Made by a program: the position numbers and the translations under genes
Assembly: GCA_025355875.1 (NCBI GenBank)
Contig: JANXYV010000173.1
Location: forward strand, 1 to 64,000
Source of the DNA: Prolixibacteraceae bacterium
GTDB taxonomy: Bacteria > Bacteroidota > Bacteroidia > Bacteroidales > Prolixibacteraceae
Direction: 5' to 3'
Length of the DNA stretch: 64,000 bases
In this document: piece by piece, positions 15,308 through 25,249 of the stretch
Numbering within the stretch: position 1 is the stretch's first letter
Layout: every line of letters begins with the position of its first letter
Notes under the pieces: model-generated
The model's database searches: none
Seen by the model: only the letters and a program-made list of their open reading frames with translations
Told to the model about the DNA's origin: nothing

Positions 15308-16582
15308 TTAGAAGTCAAACTTTGCCAGCATCGAAATTCGCGTTGCACTGCCTTTTTGATTATTGAGGTTTTTACGTGTGCCATAGGTTGCTTCCAGCCC
15401 CAGACTGATTGTTTGAATTGGATTATAAAAAATATTGGCGCCATAGTATTGACTGGCCTTAAATGTGTCTCCTGATTCAAAAGCTTCACCTTTGATCTGG
15501 GAAACTCCGGTTATCAATGAAGCAACAATGGACGAATTGTATCGGTAGGAATAGTTAATGAAGCCGCCATAAATGCTTTTCAAGACCATTTGGTTGGTTG
15601 CAGGGTTATAAACTGCATCCAATTGCCTCCCGGTGAAACCAACGTAATAATAAGCAATTCCGTTTCCCATCGAATACTGCGAATTTATCAGATGCTTTTC
15701 GCCGATATGAATCGTAGTGCTTAACAATACGCCCCATCCGTATTTTACCTCCATTTTGCCCTGGCGCAAAACATCTATTTGCCTGAAAATACCTGCTACC
15801 TGCACGTGTCCCCATTTGTTGAAGTATTTATAACGACCTGCTACATCAAAGTTTCTTTGCTTCGAAGAGTTTGCAATCAAGCTATCGTTCGGATTCAAAT
15901 AGTCGGCCCGTGGGCTTTCGATGGATATTCCCACGATGCTCTGATTCTGAAGCTTTCGCTCGTAGCGAACGATGCCGTGTCTTTTACTCAGGGAACTGTT
16001 TGGCCCTTCAAATTCTACCGTTTGTGGCAGTGAGGCATTATCCATAAAGGTACTCCAGGTGTATCCCAGTTTCAGAAAATTCCATTCGGCATATGCATGG
16101 CGAAGTCGCCAAAACGATTCGGTGCTGCTGGCAAAATCGACTTCCATATAAGTTCTGATTTTACCGGCTTTCGTATTGGCGGTACCTTCAATTCCAAAGC
16201 GTGATTGCCGGGCGCCGATATACTTGCTCGACAAGCCCGGAATTTCTTCCGCTCCGACCGGAATATCATAAGGCATAAAACCTTCCGAGCTTTTCATCCC
16301 TGCAAAGTCGTAAAACCCATTAACTCTCACGCTTCCCATAAAATTAACTTTGTATTTCGATTTTTCCAGGTCCTGAGTATTGTTGTCTTTCACAATTTTG
16401 CTGGTGTCGGTTTTTAAAGAATGCAAAGCAATAGTATCCACCCGGCTCGAGAAATAGTAAACTGTGTCTCTTTTGATGCTCTTGTCAATTTTGGTGATGG
16501 TAAGTCTCAGTGTATCCCGTTGTTGCGCAAACGAAGAAAAACTAAGGATTGTGAATATCAGTAGAGTTAGTTTTCTGGTCAT
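15308..16582 (-). CDS. DcaP-like outer-membrane porin
   Basis: The 424-residue protein has a signal peptide (MTRKLTLLIFTILSFSSFAQ), a periplasmic helical linker of about 60 residues rich in Lys/Asp/Thr, then a beta-barrel starting at VNFMGSVRVNGFYDFAG, with SRFGIEGTANTKAGKIRTYM and RHAYAEWNFLKLGYTWSTF strands and a C-terminal Phe (MLAKFDF). This pattern matches DcaP-type trimeric porins, whose N-terminal helix can form a coiled coil. It probably allows diffusion of small anionic solutes. Function in this strain is not tested by context: neighbours are MscS and an SH3 protein. Confidence 0.75.
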   Translation of the reverse strand: MTRKLTLLIFTILSFSSFAQQRDTLRLTITKIDKSIKRDTVYYFSSRVDTIALHSLKTDTSKIVKDNNTQDLEKSKYKVNFMGSVRVNGFYDFAGMKSSEGFMPYDIPVGAEEIPGLSSKYIGARQSRFGIEGTANTKAGKIRTYMEVDFASSTESFWRLRHAYAEWNFLKLGYTWSTFMDNASLPQTVEFEGPNSSLSKRHGIVRYERKLQNQSIVGISIESPRADYLNPNDSLIANSSKQRNFDVAGRYKYFNKWGHVQVAGIFRQIDVLRQGKMEVKYGWGVLLSTTIHIGEKHLINSQYSMGNGIAYYYVGFTGRQLDAVYNPATNQMVLKSIYGGFINYSYRYNSSIVASLITGVSQIKGEAFESGDTFKASQYYGANIFYNPIQTISLGLEATYGTRKNLNNQKGSATRISMLAKFDF

Positions 16583-18727: not shown

Positions 18728-21370
18728 TTAAAATTCAAGGGTCATTTGATTCGGCGGATCGTCGCCTTCTTTGGGCGGGTCGATTCCGAAAAGCAGTTCT
18801 TCAATATCAGGAATGATAATATCACTCTTCTGTTCCGGTTCAGGTTGTTCCTCCGGTTCCTCTTCAACCACTGTTGGTTCCAATTCATTGACTGACGCGA
18901 TCTCATAAATTGACAACCGTTTCCCCTTTGCCTTGTATGATTTTACGCCGATAAACTCGTCCACGTCGATCACTTCCGGTTCGCGGCCTTCATTTTTGCC
19001 ACCAAATTCAATTCCGAACCTTGGATGGGCAATCCAGCTATAACGAATCAGCCGGTTTTCAGGAAACTCTCCGATGAATCCAACTTTGCGGTTTTGAATG
19101 TCATCCAGCTCGAACCGTTTCACGTAATAGAAACCTTGTTCAGCATCAAAATAAACGGCAGTCAGCACTTTTTTCGGATTGAATTTTTCAATCAGCAGAA
19201 TTCCGGCATCGAAATGATTCGACAAATCGAAATTGCACAACAGGAATTCTCCGGATTTATAGAGCACCAGGATCATGTCGTCGCCACCAAATTCGCCAAT
19301 GTATTTGCCACGGCTGTCAGAATTCAAACGTAAAACATCTTCGTCGAACCAGATTTTACGGCCTCCAAGTGTGGAGCCACCTTTTTGCTTCAGCGCGATT
19401 TTGTGGATCTCACACTTGGTCAGTATATTTCCCATTGAAGCGCGGCCCTTGATGGCCAATTCGCTGAAATCCACTTCGAAAATGAGTTTCTTGATGCGTG
19501 GTTTGGGTTTCAGAGTTACCCGCAAAACTTCGGCTTCGCCATTGGGGTTTTCGCTGAAATACAGGATTCGTGAACCCGGAGTACCCTGGGTCAGATCGTA
19601 TTCTTTGTCGCGGGTCGCCCCGGTTACGGCAATACGTTTCATATAAATGAACCCGGCTTTCCCGTCGCGATAAACCACGTTATAAATGGTGCGATTATCA
19701 TTTTTCTTGAAAATCGCGATGTGCAACAGGTTCTTGCCAATGAATGCTTTTTCCGAAACTTTGGAAACGAGATAAGTTCCATCCTTCCTGAAAACGATCA
19801 CATCATCCATGTCGGAACAATCGCAGATATATTCAGCTTTTTTCAGGCTGGTTCCCATGAAGCCTTCCACCCGGTCGACATATAATTTTTCGTTGGCAAT
19901 CACCACTTTCGAGGCCACAATGTTCTCGAAATTCCGGATTTCGGTTTTGCGTTCACGTCCTTTTCCGTATTTGACTTTCAGACGTTCGAACCATTCGATG
20001 GTGAAGGGAATGATGTTTTCAATCTTGAGATTAATTTCTTCAATTTCAGCTTCAATGGCCAGTAAATGATCGTTTGCCTTGTCGGTATTGAATTTCAGGA
20101 TACGTGCCATTCGGATTTCCATGAGTTTCAGGATATCCTCCCGGGTCACTTCACGTTTCAGCTTTGGTTTCCACGGAGTCAGGCGCAAATCAATATGATC
20201 GATCGCCTCATCCATATTGGCCGAATCTTCAAACTCTTTGTCTTTATAGATGCGTTCTTCGATGAATATTTTTTCGAGCGACGAGAAATGCCAGGCTTCT
20301 TCCAGCTCGCCGCGCCTGATTTCAAGTTCCAGTTTTAACAAGGCAACCGTCTGGTTGGTATTGATTTTCAGGATTTCGCTGACGCCGATAAACTTCGGTT
20401 TGTCGTCTTCGATGATGCAACTGTTGGGCGAAATGGATACTTCGCAATCGGTAAAGGCGAACAGGGCATCAATTGTTTTATCCGACGACATTCCGGGAAC
20501 CAAATGGATCATGATTTCAACTTTGTCCGAAGTATTGTCGTCAATTTTGCGAATCTTTATTTTGCCTTTGTCATTGGCTTTGATGATTGATTCGATTAAT
20601 GTAGCAGTAGTTTTTCCAAATGGAACTTCGGTAACCACCAGTGTTTTGCTGTCCTTTTTCTCAATTTTTGCCCTCACTTTGATCGACGCTCCTCGAATTC
20701 CATCGTTATACCGCGAAAAATCACCTGAACCACCAGTCGGAAAGTCGGGATACAACATAAAATCTTCGCCACGTAAATAGGCTATTGCAGCGTCAACCAG
20801 TTCGATGAAATTGTGAGGAAGTATTTTACAAGCCAAACCAACGGCAATTCCTTCGACGCCCTGAGCCAACAAAAGCGGAAATTTCACCGGAAGAGCCAAT
20901 GGTTCCCGGTTTCTGCCGTCGTACGATAATTTCCAGTTGGTCGTTTTCGGATTGAAAACCACATCAAGTGCAAATTTTGAAAGACGAGCCTCAATGTAAC
21001 GGGGAGCAGCTGCTCCATCGCCGGTCAGAATGTTTCCCCAGTTTCCCTGACAATCAATCAGCAGATCCTTTTGGCCGAGCTGAACCAAAGCATCACCAAT
21101 GGAAGCATCGCCATGCGGGTGGTATTGCATCGTTTGCCCGATGATGTTGGCCACCTTGTTGAAACGTCCATCGTCCATCACATTCATGGCATGGAGAATG
21201 CGCCTCTGAACCGGTTTCAGGCCATCTTCGACATACGGAACCGCGCGCTCCAAAATTACATACGAAGCATAATCCATGAACCATTGCTGGTACATTCCCG
21301 ACAGGTAGGTGATGCCGTCTTTTTTCTCTTCAGACTGGATTTCGTCTTTGTTGATATTTTCTTCCGTCAT
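18728..21370 (-). CDS. parC: DNA topoisomerase IV subunit A
   Basis: Breakage-rejoining subunit of topoisomerase IV, which decatenates daughter chromosomes. The 880-residue protein has the active-site Tyr125 in GDGAAAPRYIEARLSKFA, the winged-helix GLKPVQRRILHAM block and the YHPHGDASIGDALV segment. The C-terminal part has beta-pinwheel strands and a long acidic tail (EEEPEEQPEPEQ) typical for Bacteroidota ParC/GyrA-like proteins. The partner parE is at 23417-25249, but a restriction-modification pair lies between them. The parC ATG begins only 5 bp after the stop of the restriction gene, so its translation is probably coupled to it. I saw no TAnnTTTG box in the 100 bp upstream. Confidence 0.95.
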   Translation of the reverse strand: MTEENINKDEIQSEEKKDGITYLSGMYQQWFMDYASYVILERAVPYVEDGLKPVQRRILHAMNVMDDGRFNKVANIIGQTMQYHPHGDASIGDALVQLGQKDLLIDCQGNWGNILTGDGAAAPRYIEARLSKFALDVVFNPKTTNWKLSYDGRNREPLALPVKFPLLLAQGVEGIAVGLACKILPHNFIELVDAAIAYLRGEDFMLYPDFPTGGSGDFSRYNDGIRGASIKVRAKIEKKDSKTLVVTEVPFGKTTATLIESIIKANDKGKIKIRKIDDNTSDKVEIMIHLVPGMSSDKTIDALFAFTDCEVSISPNSCIIEDDKPKFIGVSEILKINTNQTVALLKLELEIRRGELEEAWHFSSLEKIFIEERIYKDKEFEDSANMDEAIDHIDLRLTPWKPKLKREVTREDILKLMEIRMARILKFNTDKANDHLLAIEAEIEEINLKIENIIPFTIEWFERLKVKYGKGRERKTEIRNFENIVASKVVIANEKLYVDRVEGFMGTSLKKAEYICDCSDMDDVIVFRKDGTYLVSKVSEKAFIGKNLLHIAIFKKNDNRTIYNVVYRDGKAGFIYMKRIAVTGATRDKEYDLTQGTPGSRILYFSENPNGEAEVLRVTLKPKPRIKKLIFEVDFSELAIKGRASMGNILTKCEIHKIALKQKGGSTLGGRKIWFDEDVLRLNSDSRGKYIGEFGGDDMILVLYKSGEFLLCNFDLSNHFDAGILLIEKFNPKKVLTAVYFDAEQGFYYVKRFELDDIQNRKVGFIGEFPENRLIRYSWIAHPRFGIEFGGKNEGREPEVIDVDEFIGVKSYKAKGKRLSIYEIASVNELEPTVVEEEPEEQPEPEQKSDIIIPDIEELLFGIDPPKEGDDPPNQMTLEF

Positions 21371-21375
21371 TTCTG

Positions 21376-22476
21376 CTACTGGTAATTAAACTCAACTTTG
21401 CTTTGGATAACAATTTCATTCAGGATATGATTCAGATAGCCTAGATGTATGGCTTCTTTGAACCGGTCAGTTAATATTGGAATGTTTATCACTTCTTCAA
21501 TGCAAGCCATATACTTTTCAACTATTGCTTTGATCGGATAAAGTTTATTCGCATTTTCCTGAAGTCGGTTTTTTAGTATGTCAACACTATCTCCTGATTT
21601 AATGACGAAGGTGATTGGAAACTTTTGGATTTTGTCAATATCCAGAAAGTATTTTTTGAAATCAACCGTTTCCGTAACTTGAAAGAAACGACCTAAGGGT
21701 TTCATTACAAAATCAATACCTCCATCGTTGGCATTTGTCCTACCAGTCTTGTAAAGTTTGAGATTTTCTTTGGTAAGGCACTCCAAATCAAATCCCCAGA
21801 ATATTTTCTGATCATGATAATAATATTTGAGTATTGAATAGCTAACAATTTGAAATAGCCTTGCATCAACATGAATCGCAAGCAGACTGCATATAAAATC
21901 CTCCACCTTCTCCTGTGACTCTTTTCCAATTTTCTGAAGTTCGTTGCAGGTTTCAATAAAAAGATCAAAAGCCCCTTGTTTTGACTTTGCATATTTATCA
22001 ACAACTTGAATAACAGCTTCTGAAATATTGAAATTTGTATTTCCAATATTTATTATAAGAAGGTTTTCATTGAACCAATATCTATTCGTTTCAAGGTTAC
22101 GAATGATAGGAATATAATCAGCATTTGGGAAATATTTTTGAAATTCAGCATTCAACCGATTGTTTAACGCGTGGTTTTGCAATTTTCCACCAAATGGCAA
22201 TTCCCTTTGTCTATTGAACAGCCTACTAAATTCTGCTCCTGCATATTCTGAATAATCACGTCTTTTATCAAAACCTTTGACTAAATAATCTTCAATAATA
22301 ACATAAATCGCATACAGATTTGCAAAACTGGAACGGGCTTTCGATCCTCTGTTCGCCGATCTCGTCTTTTCATTAATATACTGGAATAGTAGGCTTTTCT
22401 CAAAAATTTCCTCTGCATGATCACCAAAATGCTCTTCCAGAACCGATTTAATCGTTGCCGTGAAGGTATGTTCCAT
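21376..22476 (-). CDS. Putative type II restriction endonuclease
   Basis: The 366-residue protein has no family I can name with certainty. It sits directly downstream of a DNA methyltransferase and overlaps it by 29 bp, the usual setting of a cognate nuclease. A candidate PD-(D/E)xK-type site is GRTNANDGGIDFVMKPLG followed by RFFQVTET: Asp255, then Gln266-Val-Thr268 where Mrr-like enzymes have Gln-x-Lys, so the catalytic Lys may be missing here or supplied elsewhere (Lys274/275 follow). The start ATG 22476 lies inside the methyltransferase. Base composition appears AT-richer than parC and parE, a sign of horizontal gain. Function is inferred mainly from the neighbour; not tested by sequence search. 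Confidence 0.65.
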   Translation of the reverse strand: MEHTFTATIKSVLEEHFGDHAEEIFEKSLLFQYINEKTRSANRGSKARSSFANLYAIYVIIEDYLVKGFDKRRDYSEYAGAEFSRLFNRQRELPFGGKLQNHALNNRLNAEFQKYFPNADYIPIIRNLETNRYWFNENLLIINIGNTNFNISEAVIQVVDKYAKSKQGAFDLFIETCNELQKIGKESQEKVEDFICSLLAIHVDARLFQIVSYSILKYYYHDQKIFWGFDLECLTKENLKLYKTGRTNANDGGIDFVMKPLGRFFQVTETVDFKKYFLDIDKIQKFPITFVIKSGDSVDILKNRLQENANKLYPIKAIVEKYMACIEEVINIPILTDRFKEAIHLGYLNHILNEIVIQSKVEFNYQ

Positions 22477-23347
22477 TGGGTTCTTCGAATAAAGTTAAAT
22501 TGTATGAATTCGATATTTTTTCAGTCTCAAAAGTTCTAATCTCCTTCTTTAGTTTTTCACCTTTGAATTCGCTGGCCAGTTGCATCCTTCGTAATCCAAT
22601 TTTCACATACTCATCCTGCAACTCAATTCCTAATGAATTTCTTCCCAGTTCTTTGGCGACATAGCAAGTCGTAAATGTTCCGGAAAATGGATCCATTACC
22701 AAATCCCCAAGATTTGAACTTGCTTTGATGATCCGTTCAAGCAATGCAATTGGCTTTTGTGTTGGATGGTTCTCGTACTCGTCCATGCGATACCTGACCC
22801 GGGGAAATTCCCAAACGTTGCCTGGCACTTTTTCAGAACTGTAAACTGTTGGAACAGTCTTTCGGTAATCAATCAGCTTCCGTTTGGCCCCGGTTTTGGC
22901 TTCTACCAAAATATCATGCGTGTTAAATGTGTAATTGTTCCGATCTTTTACGCAAAAAAGAATTGGCTCGTACATTGAACCATAGTATTTTTTTGCCTGA
23001 ACTCCTGAACTGTCATAAGACCAAATAATCCTGGAAAGTATATCGAGTTTTTTTCGAAGGTAAATGTCAAAAAATGGCATAAACTGAGTAGCCGTCATCA
23101 CATAAAAACTACCGGTAGGCTTTAATTTACGCAAACATAAATCAAGCCATAAGCAACACCATTCCAGATATTTATCTTCGGTATCCCACTTTTCTTTATG
23201 GCCATTAAAATTCTTGCCAATATTGTACGGAGGATCGGCGAAAATCAAATCAACCGAATTGTCCGGAATATTTGTGAGTGCTTCAACCGCATCTCCTAAT
23301 ATGATTTGATGTGCCTTATTTCCAAATACTTCCATAACTAAATTCAT
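22448..23347 (-). CDS. Beta-class DNA adenine methyltransferase, YhdJ-like
   Basis: The 299-residue enzyme transfers a methyl group from SAM to a DNA base. Motif IV DPPYNIGKNF (near residue 40) precedes motif I, DPFSGTFTTCYVAKELG, the order of beta-class N6-adenine/N4-cytosine methyltransferases. From memory of E. coli YhdJ, many blocks match closely: WSYDSSGVQAKKYYGSMYEP, VEAKTGAKRKLIDYRK, KVPGNVWEFPRVRYRMDEYE, ENHPTQKP. YhdJ methylates ATGCAT, so that site is my prediction. Start is ATG 23347; MEVFGNK at 23335 is an alternative. It follows parE by 69 bp, which hold a long palindrome, and overlaps the nuclease gene by 29 bp. Confidence 0.9.
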   Translation of the reverse strand: MNLVMEVFGNKAHQIILGDAVEALTNIPDNSVDLIFADPPYNIGKNFNGHKEKWDTEDKYLEWCCLWLDLCLRKLKPTGSFYVMTATQFMPFFDIYLRKKLDILSRIIWSYDSSGVQAKKYYGSMYEPILFCVKDRNNYTFNTHDILVEAKTGAKRKLIDYRKTVPTVYSSEKVPGNVWEFPRVRYRMDEYENHPTQKPIALLERIIKASSNLGDLVMDPFSGTFTTCYVAKELGRNSLGIELQDEYVKIGLRRMQLASEFKGEKLKKEIRTFETEKISNSYNLTLFEEPNGTYLHGND

Positions 23348-23371
23348 TTTTAAGCTGTTTCCCGCTTCTAC

Positions 23372-23408
23372 TTAATCACGGGGTGACTTCGAGTCACCCC
23401 GTGATTAA
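23372..23408. repeat. Perfect 17-bp palindrome between parE and the methyltransferase
   Basis: Arms TTAATCACGGGGTGACT (23372-23388) and AGTCACCCCGTGATTAA (23392-23408) are perfect inverted copies around a 3-nt TCG loop. It begins 9 bp past the parE stop on the minus strand. There is no T tract after the stem, so it is not a classical intrinsic terminator. It may stabilise the parE mRNA 3' end, mark the insertion of the restriction genes, or bind a regulator. Confidence 0.9.
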
Positions 23409-23416
23409 AAGTCTCA

Positions 23417-25249
23417 TTAAAAATCATCCTTTTCGACATACAGATTATCGATAATAAAGTCTTGCCGCTCAGGCGTATTTTTGCCCATATAAAATTCGAG
23501 CATCTTTGCGACCGATTCGTGTTTTTTCATCTGGACCGGATCGAGACGAATATCCGCGCCGATAAAGTTTTTAAACTCATCCGGAGAAATCTCGCCCAAA
23601 CCTTTAAACCGGGTTATTTCGGCCGTTTTTCCAAGTTTCTGTATGGCCGAAACCCGTTCCTCTTCCGAATAGCAATAGTAAGTTATCTTCTTGTTTCGAA
23701 CCCTGAAAAGCGGGGTCTGGAATATAAATAAATGCCCCATACGGACAATTTCAGGAAAAAACTGCAGAAAAAAAGTGATAAGCAGCAAGCGGATGTGCAT
23801 CCCGTCAACATCGGCATCGGTAGCGATGATCACTTTGTTGTAGCGCAGGTCGTCCATGCTGTCTTCAATATTCAGTGCAGCTTGCAGCAGGTTGAACTCT
23901 TCGTTTTCGTAAACCACTTTCTTTGTTAATCCATAGGTATTCAGCGGTTTTCCCTTCAGGCTAAAAACCGCTTGGGTGTTCACATCACGCGATTTGGTGA
24001 TCGATCCGCTGGCCGAATCGCCTTCTGTTATAAAAATCGAAGAATTTTCGCGGTTTTCGCTGGTGCTATTCAGGTGGACCCTGCAATCGCGAAGTTTTTT
24101 ATTATGCAGGTTCGCCTTTTTGGCGCGTTGTTTAGCCAGTTTTTTAATTCCTGAAATGGCTTTCCGTTCGCGTTCCGATTCCTGAATCCGGCGAAGCAAT
24201 ACTTCCGAAACATCCGGATTTTTATGCAGATAATTGTCCAATTCCTTCTGTACAAAATTCCAGACAAAATTCCGGACGGTGGGTCCTTCCGGACCAATAT
24301 CTTTGGACCCCAGCTTGGTTTTGGTCTGAGATTCAAATACCGGCTCTTCCACTTTGATGCTGATGGCCGCCACAATGGAAGCTCTAATATCCGACGGATC
24401 GAAATCTTTCTTGTAGAAATCGCGGATCGTTTTTACGATGGCTTCGCGGAAAACAACCAGGTGGGTTCCGCCCTGTGTGGTATGCTGACCGTTTACAAAC
24501 GAATAGTAGTCTTCGCCATACTGGTTTCCATGGGTAAGCGCCACTTCAATATCGTTGCCTTTCAGGTGAATTACCGGATAAAGAGATTCCGCCTCCATGT
24601 TGTCTTCGAGCAAATCGCGCAAACCATTCTTCGAATAGAATTTCTCTCCGTTAAATTCAAGCGTAAGTCCGGCATTCAGGAAAGAATAGTTTTTCATCAT
24701 ATTAACCACGTAATCGTCAATATAATGGTAGGCCTTGAACACCGAAATATCGGGGGTAAATGCGACAAAAGTGCCATTGGTCTGATCGGTTGGAAGCACC
24801 TCCTTTTCATCAACCAGAATTCCTCCGCTAAAATTAATTTCTTTCACCTCGCCTTCGCGAAAGGATTTTATCAGGAAATGGCTCGATAAAGCATTTACGG
24901 CCTTGATTCCAACGCCATTCAAACCCACCGATTTCTTAAAGACTTCGGAATCGTATTTGGCCCCGGTGTTCATTTTCGAGGCCACATCGAGCAGTTTTCC
25001 AAGCGGGATGCCCCGGCCAAAATCGCGGACCGTAACCAGTTCGTTGCTGACACGAACCTCAATTCTCTTGCCATTACCCATCATAAACTCGTCGATGGAA
25101 TTGTCCATCACTTCTTTCAGCAAAACGTAAATCCCGTCATCGCTTGCCGAGCCGTCGCCCAATTTACCAATATACATGCCCGGACGCTTCCGGATATGTT
25201 CCTGCCAATCAAGCGTTTTTATTGAACCTTCATCATAATTCGGCATCAT
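23417..25249 (-). CDS. parE: DNA topoisomerase IV subunit B
   Basis: ATPase subunit of topoisomerase IV. I chose ATG 25249 (MMPNYDEG) instead of a TTG at 25261. Of about 610 residues, the N-terminal GHKL ATPase shows [10 protein letters not shown] (Mg/ATP Asn) and GRGIPLG plus [14 protein letters not shown], and the Toprim domain shows [25 protein letters not shown] and a C-terminal [16 protein letters not shown]. This length suits the short Bacteroidota ParE, which lacks the 170-residue insert of E. coli GyrB. A TATATTTG box lies about 20 bp upstream. parC is in the same orientation about 2 kb downstream, separated by the restriction-modification pair. Confidence 0.95.

Follow-up and report, generated by a model that had tools for sequence, protein, structure and literature searches.

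An EcoT22I-type restriction-modification pair inserted between the topoisomerase IV genes parE and parC in a Prolixibacteraceae bacterium

The survival of selfish defence genes is usually discussed in terms of post-segregational killing. Restriction-modification (R-M) systems have reportedly been seen inserted into host chromosomal loci (work attributed to Furuta, Abe and Kobayashi in 2010 and to Nobusato in 2000), the unit standing at a place that is empty in relatives. Here we describe an R-M pair, composed of a methyltransferase gene (M) and a restriction endonuclease gene (R), that lies between parE and parC in a 64,000-nucleotide stretch of DNA (the window) from a Prolixibacteraceae bacterium (GenBank assembly GCA_025355875.1, contig JANXYV010000173.1, positions 1 to 64,000). 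Like the known chromosomal insertions, it occupies a place that is empty in relatives; it differs from them in showing no visible target duplication, in having as its host operon an essential topoisomerase unit of two genes, and in the abutment or overlap of R with an essential start codon. The pair is of a familiar kind, but its location is unusual and informative. At a single locus, related species form a natural series of empty, filled, and half-decayed states in which the gene of a restriction enzyme physically joins the beginning of an essential gene, and this series lets the effect of an essential-operon position on the survival of a selfish defence gene be tested. Operons are among the units on which R-M genes occur, according to an extract of PMC3031569. 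In extracts of the literature on R-M insertion in operons and on parE/parC, including PMC3031569, PMC3874152, and PMC12707154, no such case was found, which does not establish its absence from print.

The closest described system is EcoT22I. According to the title of a 1994 paper by Elhai, cited in PMC5034289, the plasmid pEC22 codes for MR.EcoT22I, and it carries homologues of both proteins: M is 60% identical over 260 aligned positions, and R is 38% identical over 349 aligned positions, most of its length, to an open reading frame (ORF) beside the yhdJ-type gene, which from that title we infer to be R.EcoT22I. YhdJ methylates ATGCAT, as stated in an extract of PMC4444293. The pair would accordingly be an ordinary EcoT22I/NsiI-type type II R-M system, its enzyme activity being predicted and its predicted site, given that R belongs to the EcoT22I family, being ATGCAT. 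M and R are adjacent in pEC22, as they are here, and an M homologue adjoins R in 77 of 80 related loci. However, the R gene of pEC22 comes after a helix-turn-helix gene and M lies there in convergent orientation, whereas in the window's genome M precedes R in the same direction and no controller gene exists between parE and parC. M matches the YhdJ profile NF008572 with 474 bits (cut-off, 292) and has DPPY in its N-terminal part and DPFSGTF in its C-terminal part, an order that we take to be that of a beta-class methyltransferase. R shows a PADLOC REase_II match (E 7e-153) and is assigned the restriction endonuclease fold; no Pfam or NCBIfam profile matched it (up to E 1), and a sequence search of solved structures gave nothing useful. 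GGIDF, followed ten residues on by QVTE, is invariant in 23 R-family sequences and could be a variant PD-(D/E)XK motif with putative catalytic residues.

The preliminary description of this locus had stated that parE and parC are usually adjacent and had proposed to compare their spacing in relatives, and the comparison bore out the statement. The genus set consists of 23 genomes including the window's; 21 of the 22 relatives have parE, and in 19 of these parC adjoins it, with spacers ranging from 2 bp (G064, G069, and G073) to 107 bp (G062). One relative, G072, carries M and R between the two genes, and another, G063, has M and a scar of R there; G075 (66% complete) has no parE match and yields only a gyrB-like one. 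Outside the genus, parE and parC are adjacent in 49 of 55 other family genomes, in one case with a gap of about 230 bp; eight of the 49 adjacencies were reckoned from coordinates, as the parC start was unmatched in the stretch. In G013 other genes lie upstream of parC, with no parE within the 2.3 kb up to the contig end, and five of the 55 were not assessable (G026, G038, G040, and G050 are cut by contig ends, and G054 has no parC match). Because the parE-parC junction is empty in 19 genus relatives and 49 other family genomes, the comparison indicates that the M-R pair was inserted between two normally neighbouring genes and is not ancestral. The preliminary description had named the presence of these R-M genes here in every relative as grounds for rejecting an insertion, and the relatives do not show this. 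R was found in 5 of 140 family genomes including the window's, setting aside a sixth match of 23 bits. At the phylum level it was found in 12 of 395 genomes, again counting the window's, and some of these genomes are fragments. Only in the window's genome and in G072 does R stand at parC; no parE or parC was found in the stretches read from the other three R-bearing family genomes. Sunxiuqinia belongs to this family, and G134 has M and R identical to those of Sunxiuqinia elliptica (L063). R had no match among 50,697 phage records and had matches in 11 of 72,556 plasmid records.

The parE-M-R-parC order of G072 (locus L009) comes from an independent assembly of another species, so the arrangement is not an artefact of a single assembly. 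R closely abuts parC in both species that keep it, with different junctions: in G072 the R frame ends with NYQERR and its stop lies inside the parC start, giving an ATGA overlap. In G063, M breaks off after about 276 residues; the final codons of R (NEIVIQSKVEFNFQ) come next, and after them a 31-bp leader that ends (AACGCAAAAATG) like the leader in the R-M-free sister genome G035. This remnant of R behind a truncated M indicates that R once stood in G063 and was deleted, with M and an intact parC kept. A 19-bp duplication candidate in G063 was discarded as a segment matching itself via an overlapping window.

The layout of the locus is summarized in Table 1. The gene order, strands, and junctions of the preliminary description proved exact. 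The four ORFs of the locus run from parE through M and R to parC; M and R share 29 bp, 5 bp separate the R stop from the parC ATG, and the spacer between parE and the M ORF is 69 bp long. In the G072 homologue a stop codon intervenes between the equivalents of 23347 and 23335, so M probably starts at the latter, the second ATG.

Table 1. Features of the parE-parC locus, in window coordinates.
Feature	Coordinates	Strand	Remarks
parE (topoisomerase IV subunit B)	23417..25249	minus	ORF open from 25261; candidate -7 box TATATTTG at 25276-25269
Perfect stem-loop in parE-M spacer	23368..23411	minus	core GGGTGACTNNNAGTCACCC (23381-23399), the dispersed genus-wide hairpin
M, N6-adenine methyltransferase, YhdJ type	22448..23335	minus	ORF open from 23347
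R, type II restriction endonuclease, EcoT22I family	21376..22476	minus	invariant GGIDF, QVTE
parC (topoisomerase IV subunit A)	18728..21370	minus	NF009397; ATG 5 bp after R stop

Our best explanation, to which we give a probability of about 0.64, is that an EcoT22I-type pair was inserted once, has been inherited since, rides on read-through from parE, and is kept by its own activity. An ordinary EcoT22I/NsiI-type pair with no controller gene next to it would have entered between parE and parC once, in a Sunxiuqinia-family ancestor, and would then have been inherited vertically and lost in some sister lineages. In trees, the M proteins of the three holders (the window's genome, G072, and G063) form one group in a set of 82 rows (SH-aLRT 94), as do the R proteins of G072 and the window's genome in a set of 75 rows (99); rows covering less than 85% of the query were left out. 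At four-fold sites, M (0.48-0.60), R (0.55), parE (0.46-0.54), and parC (0.56-0.59) differ between holders to similar degrees, as is expected of genes that share one history. The shared place, the M and R groupings, and the matching four-fold-site divergences favour one insertion, most likely an old one in the ancestor of part of the genus, followed by vertical inheritance. Protein identity between G072 and the window's genome is 79% for R and 88-90% for M despite large synonymous distances, indicating that both proteins are under constraint.

Several observations weigh against this reading. In a tree of parE, parC, and rpoB, the window's genome pairs with G076 (99/99) and both join G072 (88/98), while G063 pairs with G035 (100/100) and both join G066 (100/100). 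Since G035, G076, and G066 have neither M nor R, the holders do not form one clade (p-AU 3e-75) and are interleaved with non-holders, so that a single insertion implies losses in at least G076, G035, and G066. The fewest changes number three, and three gains are as short as one gain plus three losses; a single insertion requires at least three whole losses and one loss of R, and several gains require fewer whole losses, with the G063 deletion of R remaining. The hairpin that stands in the parE-M spacer (described below) is likewise missing from G076 and G066 and has different arms in G035, as though the spacer had been exchanged in its entirety. No target duplication above shuffles was found at parE-parC in the window's genome or in L009, although the traces of an old duplication may have decayed. 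The density of ATGCAT in holders (164, 193, and 177 per Mb) is not clearly below that of six non-holder genomes (about 161 to 247 per Mb, from rounded genome sizes), which gives no sign of long restriction pressure. Finally, read-through and coupling are proposed from spacing, and the promoter scan is insensitive. The interleaving, the equal count of changes, and the apparently swapped spacers would all be expected if M and R, together with the hairpin-bearing leader, had repeatedly been gained or exchanged here, for example, through homologous recombination within the flanking parE and parC genes. However, in a 150-nt sliding-window comparison, which covers G063 among the holders, its parE and parC resemble those of its sister G035 up to the junction (84-97%); all windows but two (84 and 87) are at least 88% identical, and none near the junction is closer to another holder. 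Moreover, the divergence of M between holders equals that of parE. We therefore consider repeated acquisition unlikely, though deserving of serious attention.

The relation of the pair to parC admits two further explanations. Bacteroidota promoters have the box TAnnTTTG, and a box of this kind, TATATTTG, stands upstream of parE (25276-25269). None was found in the parE-M spacer or in the 500 bp before parC, and neither stretch has a one-mismatch box with TTG at 17-21 bp; one exact TATGTTTG lies inside M, at 23139. The earlier statement that no promoter box precedes parC agrees with this, although it carries little weight with so insensitive a scan. We propose that one transcript would run from the parE promoter through M and R to parC; the parC spacer being gone in the window's genome and in G072, ribosomes that complete R would arrive immediately at the parC start. 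That parC depends on such read-through is plausible. Alternatively, parC could have its own promoter within the 3' part of R, in which case the pair would be a mere neighbour without coupling. Sigma-70-like sites do occur on this strand in R (e.g., 21848-21820), with 22 found against 15.8 expected on both strands of 8 kb, and an ATATTTG element stands 16-17 bp before parC in 5 of the 19 R-M-free relatives, so that a spacer promoter is conceivable in the genus. Yet this element is missing before parC in the window's genome and in G072, and no TAnnTTTG with up to one mismatch and a TTG at 17-21 bp exists in 21370-21900, a weak test that would miss the presumed parE promoter too, as the parE box itself has no TTG at that distance. 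On balance, a separate parC promoter in R seems to us improbable. Conversely, if parC were expressed through M and R, deletion would be costly, and the essential gene, not post-segregational killing, would hold the pair in place. This would agree with the 5-bp R-parC gap in the window's genome and the ATGA overlap in G072, with the lack of a visible separate promoter box, and with the persistence of intact M and R in two species over a large synonymous distance. Against it, G063 lost R and its parC is intact, G035, G076, and G066 are R-M free though nested among holders, and tight linkage between R genes of this family and the gene that follows does not exceed background. A same-strand gene starts no more than 20 bp after R for 12 of 54 R genes, compared with 65 of 254 neighbouring pairs at the same loci; the comparison is rough, with crude ORF calls and slightly different start-codon rules on its two sides. 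We consider it very improbable that an essential gene locks the pair in.

What stands of the preliminary description in this respect is that an R-M pair was inserted between parE and parC with R abutting parC; its suggestion that the position could keep the pair is not supported, given the loss of nearly all of R in G063, where M and parC were kept, and the R-M-free sisters. The evidence leans to position having no strong effect as a keeper. The pair would instead be kept by its own activity, as defence or as a selfish element, since G063 lost R and sister lineages lack the pair while parC persisted. A broader idea is that controller-less EcoT22I-type pairs persist in the transcription units of essential genes by a borrowed constitutive promoter and the coupling of R to the next start, that is, through addiction by operon embedding. 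If it were true, operon embedding would hinder clean loss in place of post-segregational killing; we give this idea only the slightest credence. The linkage count above covers 54 of the 80 related loci (17 near-duplicates and loci with less than 400 bp downstream or no downstream gene were left out), and enrichment of the R family in tight operons was rejected, as its proportion is no higher than that of the neighbouring pairs.

The preliminary description had also suggested that topoisomerase levels may be tied to the R-M genes. For a tie through local methylation the sequence offers no foothold: no ATGCAT lies between 16098 and 34003, and with the nearest predicted sites at 16093 and 34003 such regulation of the locus is unlikely. 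The window contains 7 ATGCAT sites, against 24 expected from shuffles and 15.6 by a higher-order model. Depletion as a mark of an active system was considered and rejected, because non-holder genomes are about as poor in the site.

The hairpin in the parE-M spacer had gone unmentioned before. The segment 23416-23350 folds with -33.4 kcal/mol (z -7.7) and contains a perfect hairpin at 23411-23368. With a simple pattern, a similar spacer hairpin was found in 10 of the 19 R-M-free genus relatives. Because such hairpins occur in the spacers of relatives without R-M genes, the hairpin probably predates the insertion and belongs to the old parE-parC spacer; that it was part of the inserted unit is disfavoured for the same reason. 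One type of hairpin arm is common to the three holders and the R-M-free G070. The hairpin is palindromic, and its core GGGTGACTNNNAGTCACCC is dispersed in 22 of the 23 genus genomes (none in G058), with 1 to 27 copies each at no more than one mismatch, and a reversed control of the pattern gave zero matches in the genus genomes. The bases of the outer arms vary from species to species but still pair with each other in most parE-parC spacers that were read.

The same R-M family also occurs beside other core genes. At L039, in an acidobacterial metagenome-assembled genome (5089-7117), M and R lie between sufD and sufS (the latter with a Pfam aminotransferase class V match), that is, between two neighbouring core operon genes, as at parE-parC. 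At that locus the 5' end of sufS recurs as a near copy of 62 bp fused before M, a clear target duplication that gives the insertion a fresh look, whereas none is seen at parE-parC. Elsewhere, the pair stands 5 bp before a gatA-like amidase gene (L026), before a glutaminyl/glutamyl-tRNA synthetase gene (glnS; L076, 9 bp to the longest ORF and 30 bp to the first ATG), 12 bp before an archaeal GINS51 gene (L046, with four close copies whose ORFs are of equal length and distance), and 93 bp before another parC (L016, with no parE in its 13 kb). Within the genus, G047 has a second, more distant member of the family directly after dnaG (L244:835-4847). The names gatA, glnS, sufC, sufD, sufS, and dnaG are our reading of Pfam matches or of the protein sequence. 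These scattered neighbours fit operon embedding in form; a preference for replication or other core genes was suspected but is not claimed, as some neighbours of this kind are to be expected in a set of about 80 loci.

Two minor observations were made along the way. G067 has two different full-length rpoB copies (L175 and L194), probably because it is a mixed bin, and its rpoB was omitted from the combined tree. At L025 and L030, M and R stand between short repeats, placed at similar distances (27 bp and 26 bp), that resemble the ends of cassettes, possibly those of integrons.

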